Origin: Magnetospirillum sulfuroxidans
Lineage (GTDB): Bacteria; Pseudomonadota; Alphaproteobacteria; Rhodospirillales; Magnetospirillaceae
Assembly: GCF_018224925.1 (NCBI RefSeq)
Contig: NZ_JAGTUF010000019.1
Location: 1-60,333, forward strand
Reading direction: 5' to 3'
Length of the DNA: 60,333 bases
The notes beneath the pieces were generated by a model. That model was not told the DNA's origin. It saw nothing but the letters and a program-made list of their open reading frames with translations, and did no database searches. Below, in pieces: positions 4,382-38,567 of this stretch (positions are counted from its first letter, which is position 1; every line of letters begins with the position of its first letter). A program made the translations under genes and the position numbers.

Positions 4382-6541
4382 ATGCGTGTCAATGAACCTG
4401 TCACCAATCATGAAATCGTCATCTCCGACGACGCGATGCTGGTCTCGCGGACCGATACCGATGGAAATATTTCCTTCGTCAATCAGGCCTTCATCGACAT
4501 CAGCGGCTTCACCCGAGACGAACTCATCGGCCAGCCCCACAATATGGTCCGCCACCCACACATGCCCAAAGAAGCCTTCGCCGACCTGTGGGCGACCGTC
4601 AAGGCCGGGCGCCCCTGGGAAGGCTTGGTCAAAAACCGGTGTAAGAACGGTGACTTTTATTGGGTCCGCGCCAACGTCACCCCCTTCGTCGAAAATGGCC
4701 GGATCACCGGCTATGTTTCGATCCGCACCAAACCGACGCGGGAGCAGGTGGCGGCAACCGACGCCGTTTATGCCCGTTTTCGCAATGGCACGGCGCATGG
4801 GCTGGCCATGCGCGACGGTCGAGTGATAGAGACCGGTTTGGCCGCCCGCGGCAAGATCTTTGCCGCCAGCATCCGCGGCCGCATGGCCGGAGTTCTGACC
4901 ACCATGATCGCCACCGTCGCCGTGGTCGGCGGCCTGGGCCTCGCCGGAATGAACGAGCTGAAGGACAATGTCGAAAGCCTGTACCGGGATAATACCGTGG
5001 CCTTGCTTCGGCTTGCCTCTGTCGCCGGACTGATGCAGGACAATTTTGAAAATATCCTGGCGGCCGAAATTCAGCTTTTGACCAACGTCACGTGGCAGTC
5101 CATGCCCGACCGCGCCAAGCGCATGGAAGACAATATCAGCCAGATCAATCAGAACTGGGATGCCTATGCATCCGGTGAGCACCCGGCCGACGAACACGCC
5201 TTGGCCACCGATTTCAACCAAAAGCGGGCTGATTTCATCGCCAGCGGGTTACGCCCTGCCATGGATCTGGCCCTCAAGGGGGATGCGGAAGCCTTGGGCC
5301 ACTTTATCGGCGCCACCGCGCGACCGAAATTCAAGGCCGCCTCTGCCGCCCAAGAAAAGCTGATGCGCTATCAGCAGATCGACGCCCAGCACACCCACGA
5401 GACCGCCACCACCGAACTGGACCACGCGGCCATGCTGGTGATCGGCGCCCTGATCATCTCCGTCGTCTTGGCCCTTCTGCTGGGGACTTGGCTGCTGCGC
5501 TTCGTCCGCCGGCCCATGACCATCATGGAGAAGCATTTCGACGCGATCGCCCGTGGCGACTTGGCCTATGAAATTCCGCCGGCCACGGTGATGGAATTCG
5601 ACGCCATGAACGCCCTGCTGCGCGCCACCAAGGCCAAGCTGGGATACGGTCGGCTGGAAACCCAGGAAACCGAGATCCAAGCCGAGCGCAAGCGTCACGA
5701 CGAGATGGAACGTCTCGCCCAATCCTTGGACAACCGTGTCGCCAACATCGTCGAGTTGATCCAGATGTCGGCGGACAACTTGCTCGGCAATTCGCAAACC
5801 CTGTCGGGCAATGCCGATCAGACCATGGTGCAGGCCGACAACGTCAGCGCCCTGACCGGCCAAGTCACCGGCAATGTTCAGGCGGTATCGGCGGCGACCC
5901 ATGAATTGTCGTCGTCGGTGGATGAAATCTCGCGTCAGGTCTCGCACGCCGCCGTGATTTCCCGCGACGCGGTGGAACAGGCCGGCAAGACCGATACCGT
6001 GGTGCGCGGCCTGTCGGAAGCCGCCACCCGCATCGGTGAAGTGGTCAAGCTGATCAATGACATTGCCAGCCAAACCAATCTGTTGGCGCTGAACGCGACC
6101 ATCGAGGCGGCACGAGCCGGTGACGCCGGCAAAGGCTTCGCCGTGGTCGCCAACGAAGTCAAGTCGCTGGCCAATCAGACGGCCAAGGCCACCGATGAAA
6201 TCGGCAGCCAAATCGCCGGCATCCAATCGGAAACCCGCATCGCGGTGGACGCCATCCGCGCCATCACCGGCACCATCGAGAACATCAACGAATTGTCATC
6301 GGCCATCTCGGCGGCGGTGGAAGAACAAGGCGCCGCCACCATGGAAATCGCCCGCAGCGTTTCTCAAGCGGCCGAAGGCACCCACCATGCGGCGGAAAAC
6401 GTCTCCATCGTTGCCGGCGCGGCGGAAGAAACCAAGCTGATGGCCGATCAGGTCACCGGCGCGGCGCAAACCCTGCAACAGGTATCCCAACAATTGGCCG
6501 ACGAAGTCCGCGGCTTCCTGGCTGAAATCCGGGCCGCCTAA
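4382..6541 (+). CDS. Aer-like PAS-containing methyl-accepting chemotaxis protein
   Basis: A 719-residue chemoreceptor. Residues about 10-125 are an Aer-type PAS domain ([21 protein letters not shown] and [15 protein letters not shown] closely resemble Escherichia coli Aer). TM1 is about 168-190, a periplasmic helical bundle follows, and TM2 is about 351-373. Next come a HAMP linker and a coiled-coil signalling domain whose hairpin region reads [20 protein letters not shown]. Unlike Aer it has a sizeable periplasmic domain between two membrane segments. At the flavin-contacting RHPD motif of Aer it reads RHPH (His60 for Asp60), so cofactor binding may differ. The start at 4382 makes residue numbers coincide with Aer; 4358 is an alternative. 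It likely senses redox or energy state. Confidence 0.88.
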
Positions 6542-6578
6542 GCATAGGCGTACTGATTATCGTCTCGGCATGAAAAAT

Positions 6579-6603
6579 GGGGGCGTTCCGATGGAGCGCC
6601 CCC
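6579..6603. terminator. hairpin terminator between converging genes
   Basis: The arms 6579-6589 and 6593-6603 form an 11-bp stem (ggggg...ccccc, one G-U type mismatch) with a 3-nt loop. It is followed on the + strand by ttgattttt and preceded by aaaaa, so it can work in both directions. It lies between the chemoreceptor stop and the ugd stop. Confidence 0.8.
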
Positions 6604-6629
6604 TTGATTTTTACCGAACCCCAAGAAGA

Positions 6630-7934
6630 TCAGGGCCGGCCAATGCTGATATACTCGAAACCCGTTTCGCGCATTTCCGCCGGATCGTAAACATTGCGCA
6701 GATCGATCACCACCGGGGATTTCAGCGCCGCTTTCACCTTGGACAGGTTAAGGGCACGAAATTCATTCCATTCGGTGACCAGAACCAAACAATCGGCGCC
6801 GGCCAAGGTGTCATAGGAATCATCGCAATAGGTGATGTCCGGCAGCAACTTCTTGGCCTCTTCCATCCCTTCGGGATCGAAAGCCTTGACGATGGCGCCG
6901 GCCGCCTTGAGCGCCGGAACGATGTCCAGGGACGGGCTATCGCGCATGTCGTCGGTGTTGGGCTTGAAGGTCAGACCCAGCACGGCGATGGTCTTGCCCG
7001 ACACCGAGCCGCCACAGGCGGCGACGACCTTGTCGGCCATGGCCTTCTTCCGCTTATCGTTGACATCGACCACGGTTTCGATGATGCGCAACGGCGCGCC
7101 GAAATCGCGGGCGGTCTTGACCAGGGCCAGGGTGTCCTTGGGGAAGCACGAGCCGCCGTAACCGGGACCGGGATGCAAGAACTTCTTGCCGATGCGGCCG
7201 TCCAGGCCGATGCCCTTGGCCACGTCATGGACGTTGGCGCCGACTTTTTCGCACAGATCGGCGATTTCATTGATGAAAGTGATCTTGGTCGCCAGAAAGG
7301 TATTGCCGGCATACTTGATCAGTTCCGAGGTCCGGCGCGAGGTGAAGACGATGGGCGTCTCGATCAGGTACAGCACCCGATAAAGCTGCTTCATCACCGC
7401 GCGCGCGCGGTCCGCCTCGGTGCCGATGACCACGCGATCGGGCCGCATGAAATCGTTGATGGCCGAGCCTTCCCGCAGGAATTCCGGGTTGGAGACCACG
7501 TCGAATTCAGCATCGGGCCGCCGTTTGCGGATAATCGCCTCGACCTCGTCGCCGGTGCCCACCGGCACGGTCGACTTGGTCACCACCACGGTATAGCCGG
7601 TCATGGCATCGGCGATTTCCTCGGCCGCGGCATAGACATAGGATAAATCAGCGTGACCATCGCCGCGCCGCGACGGCGTGCCGACGGCGATGAACACCGC
7701 GTCGGCATCCTTGACCGCCGCCTTAAGGTCGGTGGTAAAGGACAGCCGCCCGGCTTTCACATTGTCGGCGACCAATTCGTCCAAGCCCGGTTCGTAGATG
7801 GGCATGACGTTTTCGTGCAGCAATTCGATCTTGCGGGCGTCCTTGTCGACGCAAACCACGTCAATGCCGAATTCCGAGAAACAGGTTCCCGACACCAGCC
7901 CCACATAGCCGGTGCCGATCATGGCGATACGCAT
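6630..7934 (-). CDS. ugd: UDP-glucose 6-dehydrogenase
   Basis: A 434-residue cytosolic NAD-dependent enzyme that oxidises UDP-glucose to UDP-glucuronate for polysaccharide or lipid decoration. The Rossmann motif GTGYVGLVSG is at residues about 7-16. The catalytic cysteine is Cys263 in GPGYGGSCFPKDT, and the conserved EFLREGSAI follows the nucleotide domain. The gene starts 18 bp after the galU stop, so galU-ugd is an operon producing and then oxidising UDP-glucose. Confidence 0.96.
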   Translation of the reverse strand: MRIAMIGTGYVGLVSGTCFSEFGIDVVCVDKDARKIELLHENVMPIYEPGLDELVADNVKAGRLSFTTDLKAAVKDADAVFIAVGTPSRRGDGHADLSYVYAAAEEIADAMTGYTVVVTKSTVPVGTGDEVEAIIRKRRPDAEFDVVSNPEFLREGSAINDFMRPDRVVIGTEADRARAVMKQLYRVLYLIETPIVFTSRRTSELIKYAGNTFLATKITFINEIADLCEKVGANVHDVAKGIGLDGRIGKKFLHPGPGYGGSCFPKDTLALVKTARDFGAPLRIIETVVDVNDKRKKAMADKVVAACGGSVSGKTIAVLGLTFKPNTDDMRDSPSLDIVPALKAAGAIVKAFDPEGMEEAKKLLPDITYCDDSYDTLAGADCLVLVTEWNEFRALNLSKVKAALKSPVVIDLRNVYDPAEMRETGFEYISIGRP

Positions 7935-7952
7935 GAAGTGCGATCCTTAAGG

Positions 7953-8825
7953 TTAGAATTTGTACTTAGCCAGGGCTTCGCGCACGGAATCCCCGATATC
8001 CTCGCGATCAAGGGCGAAAGCGATATTGGCTTCCAACCAACCAACCTTGTCGCCGCAATCGAAGCGCTGCCCATCGAAACGCAAGCCATGGAACGGAACC
8101 ATGCCGATGGTCTGGCTGATGGCGTCAGTCAGCTGAATCTCACCGCCCGCGCCTTTTTCTTTTTTGTCGAGCACGTCGAACACCGCCGGATGCAAGATAT
8201 AGCGGCCAATGATCGACAGGGTCGACGGCGCCACCTCGGGCTCGGGCTTTTCCACCAGACCACGGGCCTTGGCGATGCGGCCGTTATCGTGTTCCACGTC
8301 CAAGATGCCGTAGCGCTTGGTGTGCTCACGCGGGACGTCGGTGACGGCGACCACATGGCCGCCCACTTCGGTGTGCACGGCGACCATCTGCTTCAGACAG
8401 GCGGTCTTGGCCAAGATCAGATCGTCGGGCAGCAATACGGCGAAGGGTTCATCCTCCACCAGATCGCGGGCGCACCAGACGGCATGGCCCAGGCCCAGCG
8501 GCTCGGTCTGGCGGGTATAGCTCATTTGCCCGGATTTCGGCATCCAGCTGGTCACCGCTTCGACCAGATCGAACTTTCCGCGCTCCTTGAGCGTGCGTTC
8601 CAGTTCCGGATTGTGATCGAAATGATCTTCCAGCGCGTTCTTGCCGCGCCCGGTGACAAAGATGAAATGCTCGCAACCGGCGGCGGCGGCTTCTTCGACG
8701 GCATATTGAATCAGCGGCTTGTCAACCACCGGCAACATTTCCTTGGGCATCGCCTTGGTGGCGGGCAGGAAACGGGTGCCCATGCCGCCAACGGGAAACA
8801 CAGCCTTGCGAATGCGACGTGCCAT
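7953..8825 (-). CDS. galU: UTP--glucose-1-phosphate uridylyltransferase
   Basis: A 290-residue nucleotidyltransferase making UDP-glucose from UTP and glucose-1-P. The signature GGMGTRFLPATKAMPKEML is at about residues 13-31, and DDLI and VEKPEPE elements follow. I use the ATG at 8825, which has a strong AAGGAG 6 nt upstream; the open frame continues to 8981 but that extension is not part of the family. It is the first gene of the galU-ugd pair and takes its substrate from the phosphoglucomutase encoded at 2.5-4.2 kb. Confidence 0.96.
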   Translation of the reverse strand: MARRIRKAVFPVGGMGTRFLPATKAMPKEMLPVVDKPLIQYAVEEAAAAGCEHFIFVTGRGKNALEDHFDHNPELERTLKERGKFDLVEAVTSWMPKSGQMSYTRQTEPLGLGHAVWCARDLVEDEPFAVLLPDDLILAKTACLKQMVAVHTEVGGHVVAVTDVPREHTKRYGILDVEHDNGRIAKARGLVEKPEPEVAPSTLSIIGRYILHPAVFDVLDKKEKGAGGEIQLTDAISQTIGMVPFHGLRFDGQRFDCGDKVGWLEANIAFALDREDIGDSVREALAKYKF

Positions 8826-8919
8826 GAAGAGCTCCTTGGAGATCGTTAATCCACAGTGAAAATGCGGATGGTCGATGTTTTGCCATGGCCCCGCGCCGGA
8901 AGCAACGCCGCTGAATGGT

Positions 8920-9411
8920 TCACGACAACAAGCGGTCGCGGGCCTGATTAAGGCGCGAGGCAATCCAGTTGGAACCGCCACGGTCGGGATGATTGGCTTC
9001 CATCAGCCGGCGATGGGCGGATTTTATGGCGGCGGTGTCGGCATTGGCGTCAACCCCCAGAACCTCGCGCGCTTCTTCCACGCTCATGCCATTGCTTGGC
9101 CGCGGCGTCGGTGGCGGCGGCGGCGGCGGCGGTGGCGCATTCTGCCGCTGACCAAGGAAGTCGCGCGCACTTTTCCAAACGGAATGCAGCTTGACCGCCC
9201 GCCCCAACCACGGCGCCAACCCGGCGCCGATGGCGGCCAGACCGGCCAGCTTGCCGGTCAGGACCAGCCAAACGCCAGCGACCACCAACGCCGCCAGGCC
9301 AAAGGCCGTCATCACCTTGGCGGCATGGCGCGGATGGACGCGTTTCAGCCAGCCGAACAACAGCCAAGCGACGACGACAAGCCCAAGGACAATGAGAAGC
9401 GGCATGATCAT
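8920..9411 (-). CDS. membrane-anchored J-domain protein
   Basis: A 163-residue protein with two predicted membrane helices (about 3-21 and 36-52), a basic stretch, a run of ten prolines (about 93-101 region), and a C-terminal J-domain of about 60 residues with the HPD motif at about 141-143 in EANHPDRGGS. The layout resembles Tim14/Pam18-type or DjlC-like membrane J-proteins that recruit DnaK to the membrane. The ATG at 9411 (MIMPLL) or 9405 is likely. No Shine-Dalgarno is visible, while a TATAAT hexamer ends 9 nt upstream, so the mRNA may be leaderless. The client is unknown. Confidence 0.82.
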   Translation of the reverse strand: MIMPLLIVLGLVVVAWLLFGWLKRVHPRHAAKVMTAFGLAALVVAGVWLVLTGKLAGLAAIGAGLAPWLGRAVKLHSVWKSARDFLGQRQNAPPPPPPPPPTPRPSNGMSVEEAREVLGVDANADTAAIKSAHRRLMEANHPDRGGSNWIASRLNQARDRLLS

Positions 9412-9420
9412 GTGATGAGC

Positions 9421-9447
9421 ATTATAGGCGCGAAAAGCCGGGATCAA
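9421..9447 (-). promoter_or_regulatory. candidate promoter for the J-domain gene
   Basis: On the minus strand TATAAT occupies 9426-9421 and TTGATC lies 15 nt upstream (about 9447-9442). The -10 is consensus; the spacer is short. It overlaps the hairpin at 9437-9457, so termination after flgH and initiation here would share sequence. Confidence 0.45.
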
Positions 9448-9457
9448 GCATCCCGGC
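9437..9457 (-). terminator. hairpin downstream of flgH
   Basis: An 8-bp perfect stem (gccgggat/atcccggc, 9437-9444 and 9450-9457) with a 5-nt loop, followed on the minus strand by TTTT. It fits a short intrinsic terminator for flgF-G-A-H. Confidence 0.55.
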
Positions 9458-9474
9458 AAAAATTTCCGCCTTTT

Positions 9475-9501
9475 CCCGGTGGGCGTTTTTTGCCCACCGG
9501 G
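9475..9501 (-). terminator. second hairpin after the flgH stop
   Basis: Perfect 10-bp stem cccggtgggc/gcccaccggg (9475-9484 and 9492-9501) around a T-rich 7-nt loop, only 14 nt after the flgH stop. It lacks a U-tract of its own. It probably works with the hairpin at 9437-9457 or protects the mRNA 3' end. Confidence 0.5.
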
Positions 9502-9514
9502 ATATCCGCGATCA

Positions 9515-10270
9515 TCAGAACGGCAGGATCACGTCCAGCAATTGCTGGCCATAGCGGGGCTGGGTCAGGTCGGAATTGACGCCGCGGCCCCCGTAATAGA
9601 TGCGGGCTTCGGCGATCTTGTCGTAGGTCACCGAATTGGACGACGAAATATCCTCGGGCCGGATGATGCCTTGGACGTTCAATTCGCGCATTTCGTAATT
9701 GACCCGGATCTCCTGCTTGCCGGAAATCACCAGATTGCCGTTGGGCAGCACCTGGGTGATGACCGCCGCCAGCTTGACGGTCAGGCTTTCGGCGCGGCCG
9801 GTGGTGCCGGCATTGGTGTTGGTGCTGGCCCCGGTGGTGCCCACCAGATTGGTCGGATCGACCGCATCGGGCAAAATCTTGTTCAGCGAATTCTCGAAGC
9901 CCAACAGACCGGTGATGCCGGCATCCTCGGACGAAGCCCGCGACCGCGTCAGGGTCGAGTTGAAGCTGGCCCCTTCGTTGCTCAGCGCCACCGCCACGGT
10001 CAGGATATCGCCGATTTCCTTGGCCCGCTGGTCCTTGAAGAACGCGCGCGAGCCCGGACGCCACAACGAATTCGCGTTTTGCGGCGGCGCCACCGGCTGC
10101 GGCATCGGCATGGCCACCGGTTGATAGCCGGCTCTTTGTGTCGGGTCCTCGATCTTGGAAACGGTGGGGCCAGAGCCGACTTCCGACAGCCGCGACAGCG
10201 CGTTGCAGGCGGACAGGGATCCCACGGCCAAAGCGATTACGGTGGTGCGGAGAAGGATGCGGGAAATCAT
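9515..10270 (-). CDS. flgH: flagellar L-ring protein FlgH
   Basis: A 251-residue outer-membrane lipoprotein that forms the L-ring of the flagellar basal body. The signal sequence ends in a lipobox LSAC with the lipidated cysteine at about residue 22. The conserved SLWRPGSRAFFKDQRA, the NLVISGKQEIRVNYE segment and the C-terminal GQQLLDVILPF are typical of FlgH. It is the last gene of flgF-flgG-flgA-flgH, 20 bp after flgA. Confidence 0.96.
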   Translation of the reverse strand: MISRILLRTTVIALAVGSLSACNALSRLSEVGSGPTVSKIEDPTQRAGYQPVAMPMPQPVAPPQNANSLWRPGSRAFFKDQRAKEIGDILTVAVALSNEGASFNSTLTRSRASSEDAGITGLLGFENSLNKILPDAVDPTNLVGTTGASTNTNAGTTGRAESLTVKLAAVITQVLPNGNLVISGKQEIRVNYEMRELNVQGIIRPEDISSSNSVTYDKIAEARIYYGGRGVNSDLTQPRYGQQLLDVILPF

Positions 10271-10290
10271 GGGACGCTCCTGTCAGCGGA

Positions 10291-11250
10291 TTAGTTGGAC
10301 AGCAGGCGGGGGCCGCCAGGGGTCACCGAAACCAGGCCGGGGCCCTCGATGACGGCTTCCACCGTGCGCTTGGATTGCAGATTGGTGATACGAATGACGT
10401 CACCCTTGCCGCCCGCTTCCTGGGCCTTGCCCTGGGTGGTCAGCGACATGAACGGCGTGCGCAGGGCCACGGTCACCAAGGCGTTGCGATCGACCAGCAC
10501 CGGACGGCGCAACTCGTTGGTGCGCAAGGGGGTTTCAGCCCGGACCGGATTGCGGGGTTCCTGGCCGATGATCTGGTCGGCATCGACAATGATGTCGCGA
10601 CGCGCCACGTCGGCGCGGATTTCAATCCACTTGATGTCGCTTTCCGCGATCACGTCGCCCCGATTCATGGCCCGCGACAACACCGGCACCCGGGCGACCT
10701 GGAACACTCGGCCGTTGACCCGCTGGCGCACCGCATTGGGCGAATCGGCGGGCACTTCAATGGTGGCGGCGAAACGATTGTTGCGCACATCCAGCACCAC
10801 ATCGCGCACGGCGATCATGTTCGAGCCTTCGGCCGGCACCGTGATATTCAGCGCCGAGCGGTTGGAAACTTCCATGTCGAAGGCGCCGGTCAGCCCTTCC
10901 ATCGCCAGGGCGTCGCGCAATTCCACCTCGATCAGGCGAACATCAACCATCTGGCCAGCGCGTTCGATGACGATGCGGTCAAAGGCCGAGGCCGGCTGCC
11001 AGTCGATGGCGTTAGCCTGGGCAACGGCAGCCAGCCAACGGGCATCGGCGACGATGCGCTTGCCCAATTGCGGCGCTCCGGCCAGGACCACGTCGGCCTT
11101 GGCCCCCAGGTTCTCCCACAGATCGCCCAATTTGACCACGTCGCCCTGGACCGAGGCATTGGCCTTGAGGGTGACCGGCAGATCAGCGGCCCAAACCTGG
11201 GCGGCCGAAGCGGCGAGGATTAGCACGGTGGCGAAGAAGCGCTTCATCAT
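10291..11250 (-). CDS. flgA: flagellar P-ring assembly chaperone FlgA
   Basis: About 319 residues with a Sec signal peptide (MMKRFFATVLILAASAAQVWA) and the C-terminal SAF-like domain of FlgA (LSRAMNRGDVIAESDIKW, then EPRNPVRAETPLRTNELRRP). It is a periplasmic chaperone for P-ring assembly. I prefer the ATG at 11250 with AGTGAGG upstream; a GTG at 11259 would overlap the flgG stop by 4 bp and add three residues. At 319 residues it is longer than the enterobacterial protein, as in many alphaproteobacteria. Confidence 0.92.
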   Translation of the reverse strand: MMKRFFATVLILAASAAQVWAADLPVTLKANASVQGDVVKLGDLWENLGAKADVVLAGAPQLGKRIVADARWLAAVAQANAIDWQPASAFDRIVIERAGQMVDVRLIEVELRDALAMEGLTGAFDMEVSNRSALNITVPAEGSNMIAVRDVVLDVRNNRFAATIEVPADSPNAVRQRVNGRVFQVARVPVLSRAMNRGDVIAESDIKWIEIRADVARRDIIVDADQIIGQEPRNPVRAETPLRTNELRRPVLVDRNALVTVALRTPFMSLTTQGKAQEAGGKGDVIRITNLQSKRTVEAVIEGPGLVSVTPGGPRLLSN

Positions 11251-11255
11251 ACGCC

Positions 11256-12041
11256 TCACTTGAGCTGGTTGATGGTGGACATCATTTCATCCGAGGTCTG
11301 AATGACCTTCGAATTCATTTCATAGGCGCGCTGGGCGCTGATCAGGTTGGTGACTTCGGCCACCACGTTGACGTTCGAGGTTTCCAGATACCCCTGCAAC
11401 AGCGTGCCATAGCCGGGCGAACCGGGATTGCCGGTCAGCACGCCGCCCGAAGCCGGGGTTTCCATGAACAAATTGTCGCCACGGGCTTCCAGACCGGCTT
11501 CGTTGGCGAAATTGGCCAATTGCAGCTGGCCGACGATGCTTTGGTCGATGGAGCCGTCGGTCTTGACCATCACCTGACCCGAAGCGTTGATGGACACGCC
11601 CACCGCGTTGGACGGCACGGTGATGCCGGGTAGAACGGTATAGCCTTCGTGGGTGACGATCTGGCCTTGGTCGGACAATTGGAACGAACCGTCACGGGTA
11701 TAGGCGGTCTCGCCCGAGGGCAACTGGATGCGGAAATAGCCCTTGCCCTGGACGGCCACGTCCAAGGTGTTGTCGGTGGATTGCACCGATCCCTGCTCGG
11801 TGATGCGATACACCGCCGTGGTCTTCACGCCCAGGCCCAATTGCACGCCGGTCGGCACGATGGTGCCGGCATCGGACGACGCGGCGCCGACGCGGCGCAG
11901 GTTCTGGTACAAAAGATCGCTGAATTCCGGCCGCCGCTTGGTATAGGCGGTGGTGTTCATGTTGGCGATGTTGTTCGAAATGACTTCGACGTTGGTCTGT
12001 TGGGCCAGCATGCCCGTGGCGGCGATATTGAGCGAACGCAT
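11256..12041 (-). CDS. flgG: flagellar distal rod protein FlgG
   Basis: A 261-residue rod protein, the normal length. The N-terminal SLNIAATGMLAQQTNVEVISNNIANMNT and the C-terminal EVTNLISAQRAYEMNSKVI are the D0 helices of the flagellar rod/hook family. The central TRDGSFQLSDQGQIVTHEGY segment is typical of FlgG. A GAGGAGTAAGAGAG purine-rich Shine-Dalgarno precedes the ATG. It follows flgF by 23 bp and overlaps the GTG version of flgA. Confidence 0.97.
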   Translation of the reverse strand: MRSLNIAATGMLAQQTNVEVISNNIANMNTTAYTKRRPEFSDLLYQNLRRVGAASSDAGTIVPTGVQLGLGVKTTAVYRITEQGSVQSTDNTLDVAVQGKGYFRIQLPSGETAYTRDGSFQLSDQGQIVTHEGYTVLPGITVPSNAVGVSINASGQVMVKTDGSIDQSIVGQLQLANFANEAGLEARGDNLFMETPASGGVLTGNPGSPGYGTLLQGYLETSNVNVVAEVTNLISAQRAYEMNSKVIQTSDEMMSTINQLK

Positions 12042-28533: not shown

Positions 28534-29838
28534 ATGCGCCAAATTCGGTCTTTGCGCATGGGCTTTGGGGGCACCGTGGTGAGCGTTTTCAATATCCTGA
28601 TCAGGTCTTCCCGCAATCGGCCGATGGCCGCGATCTTGGGCCTGGGCCTGGGCCTCGCCCTGTTCTCGTGCCCGGCCTGGGCCGATCGCGCCGACCGTCA
28701 GATCTTGCGCCAAGCTTTTGAAAAAGCCGGCAGCCTCGACCCCCAAGCCGAAGCCAGGATCGAATTGCTCGACGAGATCATCGAGGCTTTCGCCAGCCGC
28801 CATGTGGATGTCCGCGATCCCCATCTCCTCAGCCAAAAAGCCGCCACCGTCATCGCCGCCAAGCCGATGCCCGCCGATGACGCCTTCAAGGAAGCGCTGA
28901 CCGAGTTAAGCCACACCCTTGATCCCCACACCGCCTATCTGTCGGTGGCCGAGTGGAACGACATGCAGGTGTCGGTGTCGGGCAAGTTCAGCGGCGTCGG
29001 CATGGAATTGGCCATGAAGGACAAAATGGTGGTGGTGGTCGCCCCCATCGACGGCAGTCCCGCCGCTCAGGCCGGAATCCAGCCCGAGGACCGGGTCTTG
29101 GCGGTGGATGGCCAAACCATCGAAGGCTTGTCGCTGACCCAGGTGGTCAACCGTATCCGTGGCCCCGTCGGCCGCAAGGTCGCGTTGCGGCTGGCCAATT
29201 CCGCCGGCCAGGAACGCGAGGTCACCATCATCCGCGACCTTATCCGCTTGCACCCGGTCAGCGGACGGCTCGAGGGGGATGTCGCCATTATCCGCGTCAG
29301 CCAGTTTTCCGGCGGTGTCACCGCCTTGTTGCGCAATCAGGTGATCGACCTGCAAAAGCAAGCGGCTTTCGGCCTCAAGGGCATGGTGCTGGATTTGCGC
29401 CGCAACCCTGGCGGCCTGCTGGACGAAGCGGTCAGGATGGCCGATCTGTTCCTTGGCGACGTTCCCATCGTCTCGACCAAGGCCCGCAATCCCGACGATG
29501 ACGAGCACCGTTCCGGCCATGTCGGGGAAATTCTGCCCGGCGTTCCCATGGTGGTGTTGATCGATGGCGGCAGCGCCTCGGCTTCGGAAATCGTCGCCGG
29601 CGCCTTGAAGGATCATCACCGCGCCATCCTGGTCGGGCAAAAAAGCTATGGCAAAGGCAGCGTGCAAGTGCTGGAAAAGCTCTCGGAAGGGGGCGTGCGG
29701 GTAACCATCGCCCGCTATTTCCGCCCCAGCGATCAGCCGGTCGACGGCATCGGCATCACCCCGGATCAGGAGGTCGCCCCGGCCGAAGGCAGCGACCCCC
29801 AGCTTGAAAAGGCCCTGGAAACGGTGCGGAAACGCTGA
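28534..29838 (+). CDS. ctpA: C-terminal processing protease, S41 family
   Basis: About 434 residues. An N-terminal signal region (MAAILGLGLGLALFSCPAWA) is followed by a helical segment, a PDZ domain (VVVVAPIDGSPAAQAGIQPE, DRVLAVDG) and the S41 catalytic core. The core contains GGSASASEIVAGAL with the nucleophile Ser and GQKSYGKGSVQ with the general-base Lys. It cleaves C-terminal tails of envelope proteins. The start is uncertain among 28534, 28558 and 28624; the signal peptide is retained in all. Confidence 0.93.
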   Translation: MRQIRSLRMGFGGTVVSVFNILIRSSRNRPMAAILGLGLGLALFSCPAWADRADRQILRQAFEKAGSLDPQAEARIELLDEIIEAFASRHVDVRDPHLLSQKAATVIAAKPMPADDAFKEALTELSHTLDPHTAYLSVAEWNDMQVSVSGKFSGVGMELAMKDKMVVVVAPIDGSPAAQAGIQPEDRVLAVDGQTIEGLSLTQVVNRIRGPVGRKVALRLANSAGQEREVTIIRDLIRLHPVSGRLEGDVAIIRVSQFSGGVTALLRNQVIDLQKQAAFGLKGMVLDLRRNPGGLLDEAVRMADLFLGDVPIVSTKARNPDDDEHRSGHVGEILPGVPMVVLIDGGSASASEIVAGALKDHHRAILVGQKSYGKGSVQVLEKLSEGGVRVTIARYFRPSDQPVDGIGITPDQEVAPAEGSDPQLEKALETVRKR

Positions 29839-29976: not shown

Positions 29977-31191
29977 ATGTCCGCGTCGATAAAAACCCCC
30001 CCTCGCATCGAAAAAATAAAAATCAAAAATTTTCGGGTGTTGCGAGATGTAACCTTTGAAGGACTTCTCCCTCTGACCGTTTTGCTGGGCGCTAACGGCA
30101 GCGGCAAGTCCACCTTCTTTGACGTCTTCGCGTTTTTATCCGATTGCTTCTCGGAAGGACTGCGCCGGGCGATCGGCAAACGTGGCCACGGGCTAAAAGA
30201 CTTGCGCAGCCGGGATTCGGCCGGCCCCATCAGCTTCGAAATCGCCTATCGCGAAGGATATTACAAAACCAAGGGCCAGTCTCAACCCCCCTTGATAACC
30301 TATTACCTGGAAATCGATGAGGATGGCGGCCGCCCTGTGGTGGCGCGCGAATGGATGCGCTGGCGCCGGAACAAAAAGGTCGGCAATCCCTTCCAATTCC
30401 TGACCTATGAACGCGGCCAGGGGTCGGTGGTTACCGGGGAACTGCCAGAGGCCAAGGATCAGCGGGTGGAAAGGGCCTTGGCCGGCCCGGACATTTTAGC
30501 GGTCAGTACTTTGGGCAATCTGGCGGAAAACCCACGGGTCAAGGCCTTGCGCGAATTCATTACCGACTGGCACCTGTCGCACCTGTCATCCCAGGATATG
30601 CGCGGAATTCCCGAAGGCGGCCCGCAGGAGCGCCTGTCGAAAAGCGGCGACAACCTCGTCAACGTCATCGAATATCTGCACGAACGCCACCCCGACCGAC
30701 TGGAGGCGATCTTTCAGGCCTTGCGCCGCCGCATCCCGCAAATTGAAAAAGTCATTCCCCAGCCCTTGCCCACCGGGCAATTGCTGCTGATGGTCAAAGA
30801 CGCCCCCTTTTCGGAAGGGATACAGGCTCGTTACGCGTCAGATGGGACCATGAAATTGCTGGCTTATCTGGTTCAGCTTCACGACCCCAACCCCGCCCCG
30901 ATGATCGGCATCGAAGAGCCTGAGAATTTTTTGCACCCGAAATTGCTGCGGGAATTGGCCGAAGAGTGCGAGCAGGCGACCGCCCATTCGCAATTGATCG
31001 TCACCACCCATTCCCCCTTCTTCATCAACGCCCTTGCGCCACGCCAGGTCTGGGCCATCGCCCGCGACCAATCGGGCTACACGATCAACCGCCAAGTCTC
31101 CGCCATGGACGGTGTCCAGGCCATGCTCGACAACGGCGCCGTCCTCGGCGACTTGTGGATGGAAGGTTATTTCGAGATGGGCAATCCATGA
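29977..31191 (+). CDS. AAA/ABC-type ATPase (AAA_21, OLD/RecF-like) of a two-gene module
   Basis: A 404-residue SMC/RecF-like ATPase. Walker [14 protein letters not shown] is at about 37-49, an ABC-type signature-like [11 protein letters not shown] at about 287, Walker [14 protein letters not shown] at about 309, and an H-loop TTHSPFF at about 343. The insertion between them contains [12 protein letters not shown] typical of the AAA_21/COG4637 group. These ATPases pair with TOPRIM-like nucleases in OLD, PARIS and related defence systems. The stop overlaps the DUF4276 gene as ATGA. The ATG at 29977 is preferred over a GTG at 29971. The 5' end is more AT-rich than the neighbourhood. Confidence 0.88.
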
Positions 31192-31808
31192 CCCTTTTCG
31201 TCCACGTTGAAGAGGATTCCATGGAAAGCGCCTTGCAAGCGCTGATTCCCCGTCTTCTCAACACCCACGACCACAAAATCATCAACCATGGGTCAAAGGA
31301 TAAATTATTGAAAACCCTGCCGGCACGCCTGAAGGGCTATGCGGCATGGAATGCGCCAGACCTGCGCATTTTGATCTTGGTGGATCGAGACAACGACGAT
31401 TGCCGCGTCCTCAAGAAGCAACTGGAAGACATGGCCAGCGCTGTAGGCCTGTCCACCAAGACATCCCCCGCCCAGGACGGAACGTTCAAGGTGGTCAACC
31501 GGATCGTGGTCGAGGAATTGGAGGCTTGGTTCTTCGGCGATGTCCCCGCCCTTGCCAGGGTCTATCCAGGCATCCCCCTGTCCTTGGAGAAAAAGGCCGG
31601 CTATCGCGATCCCGACGCCATCAAGGGGGGCACCTGGGAAAAACTTTTGAAGGTCCTGCAAGAAGCCGGACATTATGCACCGGCGGAGAGGCTGCCCAAG
31701 GGCGAAGTCGCCAGAAAGATGGCTCCGCAGTTGGACTTGGCCGCCAACCGCTCGGCCAGTTTTCAACACTTTCACAGCGGTCTTCTGGCGTTGATCGCAA
31801 AACAATAA
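31188..31808 (+). CDS. DUF4276 TOPRIM-like protein, partner of the ATPase
   Basis: A 206-residue protein. The N-terminal strand [10 protein letters not shown] supplies the conserved glutamate and [12 protein letters not shown] (Asp66/Asp68) the DxD of a TOPRIM-like metal site. [11 protein letters not shown] and [11 protein letters not shown] are further conserved-looking blocks of the DUF4276 family. It overlaps the ATPase gene by 4 bp (ATGA), so equal, coupled synthesis is expected. By analogy with OLD-family enzymes, where ATPase and TOPRIM are fused, this looks like a split ATPase-nuclease. The activity is not established by sequence alone. Confidence 0.85.
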
Positions 31809-31809
31809 C

Positions 31810-31845
31810 GCGGCCCCCTTCTGGGGGCCGCCCGCTGCTGTTTTT
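31810..31845. terminator. terminator between the DUF4276 gene and alaS
   Basis: A 9-bp perfect stem gcggccccc/gggggccgc (31810-31818 and 31823-31831, loop ttct). TTTTT lies at 31841-31845, offset by nine nucleotides. It separates the converging ATPase module and alaS. Confidence 0.7.
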
Positions 31846-34489
31846 ACCCGGCCAAGGCCGCTTCGATCCTATCGACCGCGTCCTGGGCCTTGTCGGCGTC
31901 GGGACCGCCGGCCTGGGCCATGTCGGGACGGCCGCCACCGCCCTTGCCGCCCACCGCTTCCGAGCCGATGCGAACCAGATCGACGGCGGAATACGTGGCG
32001 GTCAAATCCTCGGTGACGGCGACCACCACCGAGGCCTTGCCGCCGTCATTGGAAACCAGCACGACCACGCCCGAGCCGATCTGCTTCTTGATCTCGTCGG
32101 CCATGCCCTTCAAATCCTTGGCCGGCACCCCGTCCATCACCCGTCCGGCATAGGTCACGCCGTTGACAACCTTGGTCGCCGCCCCCTGGCCACCGCCGGT
32201 GGCCAATTGCTTGCGGGTTTCCGACAATTCGCGTTCCAGCTTGCGGCGGTCTTCGACCAATTGGGCGATCCGGGCCGGCAATTCGGCCGGAGCCGCTTTC
32301 AACGCGTTGGCGGCACGGGCGACCAGTTCTTCTTGTTCGATGGCCCAGGCCAGGAAGGCCGGGCCGGTCACCGCCTCGACCCGGCGCACGCCGGAAGCCA
32401 CGGCACTTTCCGACAAGATCTTGAAGCCGCCGATGTCGCCGACCCGGCGCACATGAGTACCGCCGCACAATTCCACCGAGAACGGATTGGGCTTGGCATC
32501 GTCGCCGCCCATGGAAACCACACGCACTTCCTCGCCATATTTCTCGCCGAACAGCGCCATCGCCCCGGCGGTAATGGCGTCGTCCGGGGTCATCAGCTTG
32601 GTCACCACCTCGCGGTTCTTGCGGATCTGGCGGTTGACCTCGGCCTCGACGGCGCGAATTTCCTCGACACTCATCGCCTTGGGATGAGCGAAGTCGAAGC
32701 GCAGACGGTCGGGGCCGACCTGGCTGCCCTTTTGCGTCACATGCTCGCCCAGGGCGTCGCGCAGGGCCTGATGCAACAGGTGGGTGGCCGAGTGGTGGCC
32801 ACGGGTGGCGTCGCGGCGGCTTTCATCGACGGCGAAATGGGCGTCCTCGCCCAAAGCCACCGGGCCGCCCTCGACGGTGCCGAGGTGGACGATCAGATCG
32901 CCCAGCTTCTTTAAGGTGTCCTTGACGACGATGCGGGCCTTGCCGCCGGCGACGGTGATCACGCCGCAATCGCCCATCTGGCCGCCGGATTCGCCATAGA
33001 ACGGCGTCTGATTGGCGACCACCATGACTTCGGCACCGGGCTGGACGGTTTGCACACTGGCCCCGGCTTCGACCAGAGCGACGATCTGACCTTCGGCGCC
33101 GATGGTGTCATAGCCCAGGAATTCCGAGGCACCGACCTTGTCCTTGACCTCGAACCACAAGGTTTCGGTCGCCGCCTCGCCCGAGCCGGACCACGCCTTG
33201 CGCGCTTCGGCCCGCTGACGTTCCATGGCGGTGGCGAAGCCGTCGGTATCGACGCCGATGCCCTTGGCCTTCAACGCATCCTCAGTCAGATCCAGCGGGA
33301 AGCCATAGGTGTCATAAAGCTTGAACGCCACTTCGCCGGCCAGCTTGGCGCCGGGAACCAGATGGATCAGTTCGTCGTCCAAGAGCTTCAGACCCTTGTC
33401 GAGCGTGGTCTTGAAGCGGGTTTCCTCCAGCTTCAAGGTTTCGGTGATCAGGGCGCTGGCCCGGCCCAATTCGGGATAGGCCTCGCCCATCTGCTTGGCC
33501 AAAGCCGGGAACAGACGCCACAGCAACGGCTGCTCGCAGCCCATCAGATGGGCGTGGCGCATGGCCCGGCGCATGATCCGGCGCAGGACATAGCCGCGGC
33601 CTTCATTGCTGGGCAGCACGCCGTCGGCGATCAGGAAGCACGATGAGCGCAGATGGTCGGCGACGACGCGGTGCGACACCTTGTGCGGGCCGTCGGGATC
33701 GGTCCCCGATTCGTGCGCCGACGCCTCGATCAGGGCGCGCAGCAAATCGACGTCGTAATTGTCGTGCTGGCCTTGCAGCACGGCGGCCAGACGTTCCAGC
33801 CCCATGCCGGTGTCGATGCTGGGCTTGGGCAGGGCCAAGCGAGTCTGCTTGTCCACCTGCTCGAACTGCATGAACACCAGATTCCAGATTTCGATGAAGC
33901 GATCGCCATCCTGGTCGGGACTGCCGGGCGGGCCGCCGGGAATGTGTTCGCCGTGATCGTAAAAAATCTCCGAACACGGACCGCAGGGACCGGTATCGCC
34001 CATGGACCAGAAATTATCGCTGGTGGGGATGCGGATGATGCGGTCGTCCGACAAGCCGGCGACCTTTTTCCAAATCTTAAAAGCCTCGTCATCGTCGTGA
34101 TAGACAGTGACCAGCAGCTTGTCCTTGGCCAGGCCGAATTCCTTGGTGATCAGGTTCCAGGCCAGGGCGATGGCATCGTCCTTGAAATAATCGCCGAAGG
34201 AGAAATTGCCGAGCATCTCGAAGAAAGTATGGTGGCGCGCCGTATAGCCGACATTATCCAGATCATTGTGCTTGCCGCCAGCACGCACGCATTTCTGCGA
34301 GGTGGTGGCACGGGTGTAATCGCGCTTTTCCACCCCGGTGAACACGTTCTTGAACTGAACCATGCCGGCATTGGTGAACATCAGCGTCGGATCGTTGCGC
34401 GGCACCAGCGGACTGGAGGACACCACTTCATGGCCGTTCTTGGCGAAGTAGTCGAGAAAGGCGCGGCGGATGGTGTTGGCAGTCTGCAT
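31844..34489 (-). CDS. alaS: alanyl-tRNA synthetase
   Basis: An 881-residue class II synthetase of normal length. The aminoacylation domain begins [19 protein letters not shown] and contains [20 protein letters not shown]. The editing domain has HHSATHLLH (about 562) and CGGTHV (about 673), the zinc-binding residues that clear Ser-tRNA(Ala). The C-Ala domain ends [15 protein letters not shown]. It charges tRNA-Ala, one gene for which lies at 45.07 kb. Confidence 0.98.
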
Positions 34490-36329: not shown

Positions 36330-38567
36330 ATGAGCGATCCCTTCGACCTTGACGACGACATCCCCAATCCGTTCCAGCCGGCGCCCCGCCGGGCCGAGCC
36401 GGCGCCGGTCCCCGCCGATGCCGTGTGGCTGGTCGGCCTGAACCCGGAACAGACCGAGGCGGTGACCACCACCGAAGGCCCGGTTCTGGTGCTGTCCGGC
36501 GCCGGCACCGGCAAGACCCGGGTGCTGACCAGCCGGCTGGCTCAGATCCTGGCCGGCCGTCGGGCCCAGCCGTGGCAAATCCTGTCGGTGACCTTCACCA
36601 ACAGGGCGGCGCGCGAGATGAAGGAGCGCGTTGGTCATCTGGTCGGGCCAGCGGCCGAATCGCTGTGGCTGGGCACGTTCCATTCCCTGTGCGTGCGCAT
36701 CTTGCGCCGCCACGCCGAGGCGGTGGGGCTGAAATCCAATTTCACCATCTTGGATTCCGACGACCAGCTCCGCCTGCTCAAGCAGGTGATGGAAGGCGAA
36801 CATATCGATACCAAGAAATGGCCGGCGCAGGCGCTGATGGGGGCGATCCAGCGCTGGAAGGACCGTGGCCTGACACCCGACAAGATCGGCCCCGACCTGG
36901 CCGGCGATCTGGCCGGCGGCCGGGCGCAGGTGCTCTACCGGCATTATCAGGAACGGCTGCTGACCCTGAACGCCGCCGATTTTGGCGATCTTCTGCTTCA
37001 TTGCCTGACCTTGTTCCTGTCCCACCCCGACGCCCTGGCCCAGTATCAGGACCAGTTCCGCTATATCCTGGTCGACGAATACCAAGACACCAACGTGGCG
37101 CAATATCTGTGGCTGCGCCTGCTGGCGCAAAAGCACAAGAACATCTGCTGCGTCGGTGACGACGACCAAAGCATCTATTCCTGGCGCGGGGCGGAAGTCG
37201 GCAACATCTTGAAATTCGAGCGCGATTTCCCCGGCGCCAAGGTGGTGCGGCTGGAAAGCAATTACCGCTCGACCCCGCACATCCTGGCCGCCGCCAGCGG
37301 CCTGATCGCCAACAATGCCGATCGCCTGGGCAAGACCCTGCGCCCCGGCATCCGCCATGATCCATCCGAGGTGGAAAAGGTGCGGGTGCGCGGCGTCTGG
37401 GACGGCCCGGAAGAAGCCCGCGTCGTCATCGAGGAAATCGAGGCCTTGCAGCGCAAGGGCTGTTCCGCCGCCACCATCGCCATTCTGGTCCGCGCCGGCT
37501 TTCAGACCCGCGAATTCGAGGAACGGCTGATCACCACCGGCATCCCCTATCGGGTCATCGGCGGTCCGCGTTTCTATGAACGCCAGGAAATCCGCGACGC
37601 CATGGCTTATTTACGGCTGGTCAACTCGCCCGATGACGGCTTGGCCTTCGAACGCATCGTCAACCTGCCCAAGCGCGGCCTGGGCGACGCCGCCCTGCAA
37701 GCGGTGCACGCGGTGGCGCGGGCACGGGCTTTTCCCTTGTTCGAAGCCGCCCGCCTGCTGGTGGAAACCGACGAATTGAAGCCCAAGCCCCGTGGCGCCC
37801 TGACCAAGTTCTGCGCCGACGTGCTGCGCTGGCGCGGCTTGTTGGACGATCTGCCGCATACCGAGCTGGCCGAGATGATCTTGGACGAATCCGGCTATGT
37901 CGAGATGTGGAAGAACGACAAAAGCGCCGAAGCGCCGGGCCGGGTGGAAAACCTGAAGGAACTGGTCCGCGCCCTGGCCGATTACGAGAACCTGCAAAGC
38001 TTTCTCGAACACGTCGCCCTGGTGATGGAAAACGACCAAAAGGACGGCGTCGACAAGGTCACCATCATGACCCTGCACGGGGCCAAGGGGCTGGAATTCG
38101 ACAATGTCTTCCTGCCCGGCTGGGAAGAAGGGGTGTTCCCGCACCAACGCGCCATGGACGAAGGCGGCAATGCCGGCCTGGAAGAAGAACGCCGCCTCGC
38201 TTATGTCGGCCTGACCCGCGCCCGCAAACGCGTCCTGGTCACCTTCGCCGCCAACCGCCGCATCTATAACCAGTGGCAAAGCGCGCTGCCGTCGCGTTTT
38301 CTCGACGAATTGCCCGCCGCCGATATCGACCGCGACGCCGAACGCGGCCTGATCGGCTCGTGGCAACAATCCTCCCGCCCCAAGCAGCCCGCCGCCTGGG
38401 CGGCGCCGCTCCGCGACCAGGCCGGCGATTTCGAAGCCGGCGACCGCGTCTTCCATCAGAAATTCGGCGGCGGCGTCGTGCTGGCCGTCGATGGCGACAA
38501 GCTGGAAATCGAATTCGACCAGGCCGGCATCAAGAAGGTGCTGGACAGTTTCGTCGAGCCCGCTTAA
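36330..38567 (+). CDS. uvrD: UvrD/PcrA-type superfamily 1 DNA helicase
   Basis: A 745-residue helicase of mismatch and nucleotide excision repair. Walker A LSGAGTGKTR is at about 56-64, motif II DEYQDTN at about 249, motif III GDDDQSIYSWRGA, motif V TLHGAKGLEFDNVFLPGW and motif VI EERRLAYVGLTRARK. The C-terminus has a Tudor-like GDRVFHQKFGGGVVLAVDG segment found in PcrA/UvrD. No Shine-Dalgarno is visible; TATAGT lies 8 nt before the ATG, so the mRNA may be leaderless. The gene product works with UvrC, encoded at 49-51 kb. Confidence 0.95.
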   Translation: MSDPFDLDDDIPNPFQPAPRRAEPAPVPADAVWLVGLNPEQTEAVTTTEGPVLVLSGAGTGKTRVLTSRLAQILAGRRAQPWQILSVTFTNRAAREMKERVGHLVGPAAESLWLGTFHSLCVRILRRHAEAVGLKSNFTILDSDDQLRLLKQVMEGEHIDTKKWPAQALMGAIQRWKDRGLTPDKIGPDLAGDLAGGRAQVLYRHYQERLLTLNAADFGDLLLHCLTLFLSHPDALAQYQDQFRYILVDEYQDTNVAQYLWLRLLAQKHKNICCVGDDDQSIYSWRGAEVGNILKFERDFPGAKVVRLESNYRSTPHILAAASGLIANNADRLGKTLRPGIRHDPSEVEKVRVRGVWDGPEEARVVIEEIEALQRKGCSAATIAILVRAGFQTREFEERLITTGIPYRVIGGPRFYERQEIRDAMAYLRLVNSPDDGLAFERIVNLPKRGLGDAALQAVHAVARARAFPLFEAARLLVETDELKPKPRGALTKFCADVLRWRGLLDDLPHTELAEMILDESGYVEMWKNDKSAEAPGRVENLKELVRALADYENLQSFLEHVALVMENDQKDGVDKVTIMTLHGAKGLEFDNVFLPGWEEGVFPHQRAMDEGGNAGLEEERRLAYVGLTRARKRVLVTFAANRRIYNQWQSALPSRFLDELPAADIDRDAERGLIGSWQQSSRPKQPAAWAAPLRDQAGDFEAGDRVFHQKFGGGVVLAVDGDKLEIEFDQAGIKKVLDSFVEPA

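Follow-up and report, generated by a model that had tools for sequence, protein, structure and literature searches.

A stand-alone HEC-01-type gene pair in Magnetospirillum sulfuroxidans: an OLD-like ABC ATPase and a predicted Toprim nuclease as a probable conflict module

Between a ctpA-like gene and alaS, in the 60,333-nucleotide stretch of Magnetospirillum sulfuroxidans DNA that was analysed (contig NZ_JAGTUF010000019.1; hereafter the window), two overlapping genes encode an ABC ATPase (P1) and a DUF4276 protein (P2), a pair already catalogued in PADLOC-DB as the candidate anti-phage system HEC-01. We consider it likely that this stand-alone cassette is a conflict module used in defence, its OLD-type ABC ATPase keeping a separately encoded Toprim nuclease under control; this estimate spans two ways of working, namely a PARIS-like release of the nuclease and a stable complex that acts as a direct nuclease in the manner of OLD and Gabija. 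The reading is supported by the pairing of the two genes, the intact ATPase motifs, the Toprim-like predicted fold, purifying selection, a patchy distribution and the company of restriction and BREX genes (the features of the locus are collected in Table 1).

Table 1. Features of the gene pair and its surroundings (window coordinates; n, number of aligned proteins)
Feature	Position	Strand	Remarks
HEC-01A-type ABC ATPase (P1; AAA_21, OLD-like), 404 aa	29977..31191	+	Pfam, PADLOC HEC-01A, AlphaFold2 model with PtuA/GajA/OLD matches
Alternative in-frame start (GTG) of P1	29971	+	versus ATG at 29977
Walker A GANGSGKS (P1 residues 38-45)	30088..30111	+	G38, N40, G41, G43, K44 invariant (n=35)
SDGT signature-like loop (P1 residues 288-291)	30838..30849	+	S288-T291 all invariant (n=35)
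Acidic Walker B region (P1 E313, E314, P315, E316)	30913..30924	+	E313/E314/E316 invariant, P315 nearly (n=35)
H-loop histidine H345 of P1	31009..31011	+	invariant (n=35)
HEC-01B-type DUF4276 protein (P2), predicted Toprim nuclease, 206 aa	31188..31808	+	HEC-01B 250 bits; pLDDT 95.4; 6nk8 best solved match
P2 E8, predicted metal-A glutamate	31209..31211	+	invariant (n=60); putative role by comparison with OLD
P2 D66-R67-D68, predicted metal-A DxD	31383..31391	+	D66, D68 invariant (n=60); putative role
P2 E110-L111-E112, predicted metal-B pair	31515..31523	+	E112 invariant, E110 at least 90% (n=60); putative, from spacing
P2 K171, possible equivalent of OLD K562	31698..31700	+	at least 90% (n=60); putative, from spacing
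GC hairpin in the gap between the DUF4276 gene and the convergent alaS	31810..31831	.	its equivalent in G011 marks the point of the G008 insertion
Flank: ctpA-like gene, outside the cassette	28534..29838	+	named from sequence
Flank: alaS	31844..34489	-	3' end flanks the site both in the window and in G008; named from sequence
UvrD-like ORF, further off	36330-38567		named from its sequence

Much of what the original prediction had read from the letters holds: both reading frames are open, with the stop of the P1 gene and the start of the P2 gene overlapping as ATGA; the ATPase motifs that it listed are present, with their key residues invariant in 35 ATPases; and so are the conserved glutamate (FVHVEED) and DxD (LVDRDND) of the second protein, invariant in 60 DUF4276 proteins. 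The AAA_21/DUF4276 type that it named is likewise borne out by Pfam matches far over the cut-offs and well beyond chance (AAA_21 on P1, 106.5 bits, cut-off 27; DUF4276 on P2, 101.2 bits, cut-off 30.2). As it had also suggested, the cassette is AT-richer at its 5' end, where its GC content (0.536-0.608 in 250-base steps, against 0.604-0.684 in the displayed flanks, both ranges excluding the two steps that straddle the cassette ends, 0.576 and 0.664) reaches its minimum, and the cassette as a whole lies somewhat below its flanks. The description as an isolated cassette with its own terminator stood in its first part, the pair lying directly between the two flanking genes, but not in its second: the hairpin downstream of P2 is probably shared with alaS, and it is not significant by itself, since the region contains two terminator-like sites against a mean of 2.8 in shuffled sequence.

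The assignment to HEC-01, judged from the component models together with gene adjacency, covers both proteins nearly end to end (P1 versus PDLC04182, HEC-01A: 487 bits, residues 9-402 of 404; P2 versus PDLC04202, HEC-01B: 250 bits, residues 1-204 of 206). All 13 PADLOC models matched by P2 belong to HEC-01, as do the nine top models for P1, for which the tenth is AriA (106 bits) and the AbiLi and mad3 models also appear among the best 25 of 156 families. In the same database, the component letters of two models seem to be swapped, the 'HEC-01B' model of the pair PDLC04144/PDLC04143 matching the ATPase and the 'HEC-01A' one the DUF4276 protein. The relevant part of PMC12988326 spells out HEC as Hma-embedded candidate, and these candidates trace to a 2024 preprint of Payne and colleagues, as cited in sections of PMC11411939 and PMC12988326; the latter describes, in the same part, several of them (HEC-06 included) as antiviral, HEC-05 appears in a section of PMC11411939, and HEC-01 is listed among defence systems in a portion of PMC12724379. 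The name thus originates from an Hma/defence cluster, and the window copy instead stands alone between its two flanking genes. Our literature searches found no worked-out mechanism for the HEC-01 pair, no experiment on an ATPase/DUF4276 pair and no paper on DUF4276 (PF14103), so that the earlier view of a candidate module lacking a known mechanism is upheld as regards mechanism, but has to be amended in that the kind had already been catalogued.

The two genes travel together. A DUF4276 profile search of the genome collection, run with one peptide pattern, yielded at least 569 confirmed relatives, of which the best 80 were taken as loci; when these were joined by the four confirmed loci in viral contigs, an ATPase gene adjoined DUF4276 in 79 of 84 loci (the nearest relatives of the window pair rather than a random sample), and four of the five loci devoid of one start where their contig does. 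In the exception, L071 (Methanofollis MAG, 7974-8603), the 8 kb upstream hold no recognisable ATPase gene, and less than 1 kb separates the DUF4276 gene from the contig end downstream. Among the 20 other non-window loci from the genus and class searches, 19 have an ATPase by BLAST (E 1e-3), and in the remaining one (L012) it seems to be a decayed remnant. Furthermore, over the 70 rows in which P1 and P2 are both nearly complete (the window and 69 of the 82 loci L054-L135) their pairwise distances are correlated (r 0.78), a value reached in none of 1000 permutations (highest 0.19); in 99.6% of row pairs P1 shows the higher conservation. One genome of the class, G299, holds three DUF4276 matches within approximately 7.5 kb (C1:845974-853440; L009, L021 and L022), and L020 lies further along at 968467; all four are accompanied by ATPase genes of their own, which diverge from one another, i.e. 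a local cluster of different subfamilies.

The AlphaFold2 model of P2 is confident, and its top match among solved structures by Foldseek is 6nk8 (E 4.5e-3, probability 1.00, TM 0.54/0.56, rmsd 6.3, 215 gapped alignment columns), the C-terminal Toprim region of the class 2 OLD protein of Burkholderia pseudomallei; a Pyrococcus protein of unknown function (2p62) ranks second, and chain A of the PARIS complex 8ux9 (8ux9_A, its subunit not being stated) ranks fourth as a weak match (E 0.14). At E <= 0.001 Foldseek returned no match for P2 in the PDB, nor in the viral structure library, where a RloB-like phage protein ranks third, weakly; no PHROGs family matched it. Since the plain P2 sequence found nothing among solved structures up to E 1, and the DUF4276 profile found up to E 10 just six designed or unrelated proteins, the fold assignment rests on the predicted model. 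Alignments of DUF4276 by hhalign with OLD-like Toprim (16 pieces; probability 8% local, 11% global) and with the DUF4435 type (7 pieces; 18% local, 8% global) were weak, with the E and DxD motifs in register. The catalytic residues of OLD are given, in the part of PMC7049728 that treats them, as E400, D455 and D457 (metal A), E404, T506 and E508 (metal B) and K562; the steps from E400 through D455 and E508 to K562 are 55, 53 and 54 residues, and those from E8 through D66 and E112 to K171 in P2 are 58, 46 and 59, with D68 and E110 next to D66 and E112; at the offset of E404, P2 has no equivalent residue. From the order and spacing of these conserved residues, we infer that P2 may carry a Toprim site of the OLD type. 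We regard the predicted fold as Toprim-like with moderate confidence, given that E never reached 0.001; a structure prediction devoid of a Toprim fold or metal site, the outcome named beforehand as contrary to the original prediction, was not seen, 6nk8 being the best match and the acidic residues of the putative site invariant.

The model of P1 (pLDDT 91.7) is matched best by PtuA of retrons and Septu, with GajA at rank 38 and Thermus OLD at rank 39 (TM approximately 0.4-0.55), and 13 PHROGs families, mostly of unknown function, match its sequence. In a variant inside our main reading, which we hold to be possible rather than probable, a stable ATPase-Toprim complex would nick or degrade invading DNA directly, as in OLD or Gabija, with neither release of the nuclease nor cleavage of tRNA. 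It would agree with the structural match of P2 to the OLD C-terminal region, with the OLD-like arrangement of E8, D66, D68, E112 and K171, with the DNA cleavage that PMC7049728 describes, in part of its text, for OLD proteins, and with the existence of a fusion, i.e. a single 615-aa ORF matching both components (L118, from a MAG, in which a sequencing error is possible). On the other hand, of the 79 paired loci a single one departs from the arrangement as separate genes, which is PARIS-like rather than OLD-like, and unlike in Gabija no helicase gene lies directly beside the window pair.

Judged by profile, the pair is not PARIS: P2 matches, up to E 0.1, neither an AriB model nor a DUF4435 model (the type to which we take the PARIS nuclease AriB to belong). 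For P1, AriA is the best match outside HEC-01, its models scoring 106 and 75 bits, far below HEC-01A. The architecture, an ABC ATPase and a Toprim nuclease as separate proteins, is nevertheless shared with PARIS, in which a hexameric ABC ATPase sequesters the nuclease and frees it on sensing Ocr, whereupon the nuclease dimerises and cuts tRNA (PMC11455837; PMC12409363); the components of PARIS are sometimes fused, as mentioned in part of PMC12409363. With OLD of classes 1 and 2 (GajA) the pair shares the combination of ABC ATPase and Toprim, as well as the best structural match of P2, and differs from it in that OLD is one polypeptide, with the fusion noted above as the exception, and in that P2 does not match Pfam OLD-like_TOPRIM; the two ORFs of the window therefore do not qualify as a fused OLD. 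The earlier wording, 'split OLD-like or PARIS-like', fits as a description, but PARIS falls away by profile, and the structural likeness of P2 leans to OLD, the PARIS chain being a weak fourth. A review asks, in an excerpt, whether split-gene PARIS represents a fourth class of OLD (PMC10568477).

Further candidates were considered and rejected or set apart. The pair is not Gabija, as no GajB UvrD-like helicase stands beside it (it is bordered on one side by the ctpA-like gene and on the other by alaS), nor MADS, as P1 scores 114.2 bits against the cut-off of 420 of NCBIfam MADS3 (MAD3 equivalog). AbiL and MADS (MAD3) are grouped with OLD and PARIS as associations of ABC ATPases with Toprim in a section of PMC12409363; the AbiLi and mad3 models do match P1, and the difference lies in P2 with its exclusively HEC-01 models. 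Moreover, TOPRIM-linked ABC ATPases of the OLD type have been proposed as backup effectors in BREX loci by a 2026 study (PMC12839542, in part), which in the same portion also credits modules of this sort to Aravind and colleagues, who had described them earlier; the BREX company of such pairs is therefore not new in itself. These modules resemble our pair in joining an OLD-type ABC ATPase with a Toprim partner in BREX or BREX-related loci, and differ in that the main text of the study does not mention DUF4276.

In the 80 genome loci (the best of the at least 569 relatives), type I restriction genes accompany the pair on the same strand in 12 and BREX genes in five (together 17, with neither seen in the other 63), figures that are minima because flanks end at 8 kb or at a contig end. 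These by-locus counts cover type I restriction and BREX genes only, identified by BLAST to representatives, some of which were checked with PADLOC. Ten of the 12 loci with restriction genes show the gene order hsdS, P1, P2, hsdR, and L066 shows pglX, P1, P2, pglZ. The neighbour set comprised 235 ORFs of at least 100 aa, 135 of which adjoin the pair, and 66 of these do so on the same strand within 250 bases; of the 66, nine match models of type I restriction enzymes and five those of specificity subunits (PADLOC, best 25 of 206 families), four match PglZ (Pfam, best 25 of 84 families), and several match ordinary metabolic families. In a rough control (29 genomes of one class, any strand or distance, the same simple ORF rule), 58 neighbours of rlmN, named from its sequence, gave, at an equal match limit, two PADLOC matches (mad2 and ZorB) and no type I restriction, specificity or PglZ match. 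On a tree of the 70 concatenated P1+P2 pairs, built by a quick search with SH-aLRT as the sole support measure, 10 changes (gains or losses) are needed to explain the restriction label and five to explain the BREX label; well supported branches require seven and three of them, respectively. Shuffled labels are as clustered as the real ones in both cases. In a viral-classed contig (L134, IMGVR_UViG_3300045136_000824, 5404-11689) the pair likewise has a type I specificity gene on one side and a restriction gene on the other, and the contig's classification may be wrong or the cluster mobile.

As HEC-01 combines a PARIS-like architecture with similar company, the most likely division of labour, in our view, is that P1 acts as sensor and restraint and P2 as executor. 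By analogy with PARIS, an oligomer of P1 would hold the P2 nuclease inactive; P1 would recognise a phage product, perhaps an anti-restriction protein or one that disables restriction or BREX; the nuclease would then be released, and the released P2 might cut host or phage nucleic acid (DNA or tRNA), thereby stopping the infection. The complex, its trigger, the nuclease activity, its substrate and the effect on defence are all steps that we infer. A broader proposal, which we put forward tentatively and consider rather unlikely, is that HEC-01 is a general guard of type I restriction and BREX that evolved in parallel with PARIS: the ATPase would sense anti-restriction proteins, a nuclease with a site resembling that of OLD class 2 rather than AriB would execute abortive infection, the placement between hsdS and hsdR and beside pglX/pglZ would be the footprint of this role, and stand-alone copies would guard restriction encoded elsewhere. 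In the seven-row clade of the window no row is labelled restriction or BREX, so that for the window pair the guard idea is borrowed from relatives.

Within the genus, P2 was found in two of 13 genomes (the window's own and G008; a third genome, G003, is only 79% complete), and the pair adjoins alaS in two of the 12 in which the end of alaS was found. The universal conservation at this locus that had been named as contrary to the original prediction was thus not seen, and the G008 site is unoccupied in a relative: G008 and G011 are 91.6% identical over 944 bases on the alaS side and 89.8% over 912 bases beyond the pair, a glyoxalase-type gene included, and where G008 carries the pair between the alaS side and this gene, G011 has a terminator-like hairpin after alaS. 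Approximately 19 bases of this hairpin are present on both sides of the G008 pair (one copy degenerate), and G011 thus shows what the G008 site looks like without the pair. The 3' neighbour of alaS varies among these congeners, being the glyoxalase-type gene in G011 (L046), the pair followed by that gene in G008 (L053), and the pair followed by ctpA in the window, in which the glyoxalase-type gene has no match. We make no claim of a defence hotspot at alaS: seven of 10 ORFs scanned in relatives have no Pfam match at E 1e-4, and some alaS-adjacent ORFs there are perhaps not real genes. The genome of the window has a single P2 match and no match to the OLD-like Toprim or DUF4435 families.

The similarity between window and G008 extends from alaS to a few bases off the start of P1 and then ends. 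P1 is 91% and P2 69% identical between the two, and the dN/dS values (0.03 for P1 and 0.15 for P2, window genome G000 versus G008) place both alleles under purifying selection. The dS values of the cassette (P1 1.75, P2 1.47; NG86, near saturation at such heights) are 1.7 to 3.7 times those of four genes nearby (0.47-0.88, with just 174 residues compared for uvrD), which favours a separate arrival, or a replacement, of two old alleles and makes a single vertical insertion common to G000 and G008 doubtful as the sole account; with dS near saturation, the view that two old alleles came to one site separately or by replacement is a tentative one. A patchy cassette at an intergenic site would also suit a selfish, toxin-antitoxin-like addiction element, with a toxic nuclease kept in check by the ATPase and a pair that serves its own persistence instead of protecting its host, and the Pfam description of AAA_21 mentions a putative AbiEii type IV toxin-antitoxin. 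We consider this improbable, as the recurrence between hsdS and hsdR or beside pglX/pglZ points to defence, though the two ideas overlap.

Counting the genome of the window, 14 of the 289 class genomes contain DUF4276, as does none of 14 control genomes; a P2 relative was found in 10 of 72,556 plasmid records and in none of 50,697 phage records. The relatives occur in numerous bacterial and archaeal phyla. In the tree a Nitrospirota MAG groups with one from Rhodospirillales (98), and Ferrovum groups with Methanosarcina (100); unless a MAG was misbinned, these are signs of transfer between distant hosts. This distribution bears on the disfavoured and very improbable alternative of a DNA-repair or housekeeping pair of ATPase and nuclease: while an ATPase core of the SMC/RecF-like kind and the strong purifying selection on P1 would accord with it, the small share of class genomes, the 11 of 13 genus genomes with no P2 match (one of them the incomplete genome), the unoccupied state of the G008 site in a near relative and the spread across bacterial and archaeal phyla all argue against it.

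A conflict module in which P1 controls P2, as preferred here, gives DUF4276 a concrete and testable enzymatic assignment as a predicted nuclease, and renders the HEC-01 pair more amenable to experiment through a predicted fold, a predicted active site, a testable trigger and a genomic context. Moreover, the insertion site beside alaS allows the gain and loss of the cassette to be traced in one genus. If the guard idea were true, phages that disarm restriction or BREX would trigger a second layer of defence, by way of a family other than PARIS.
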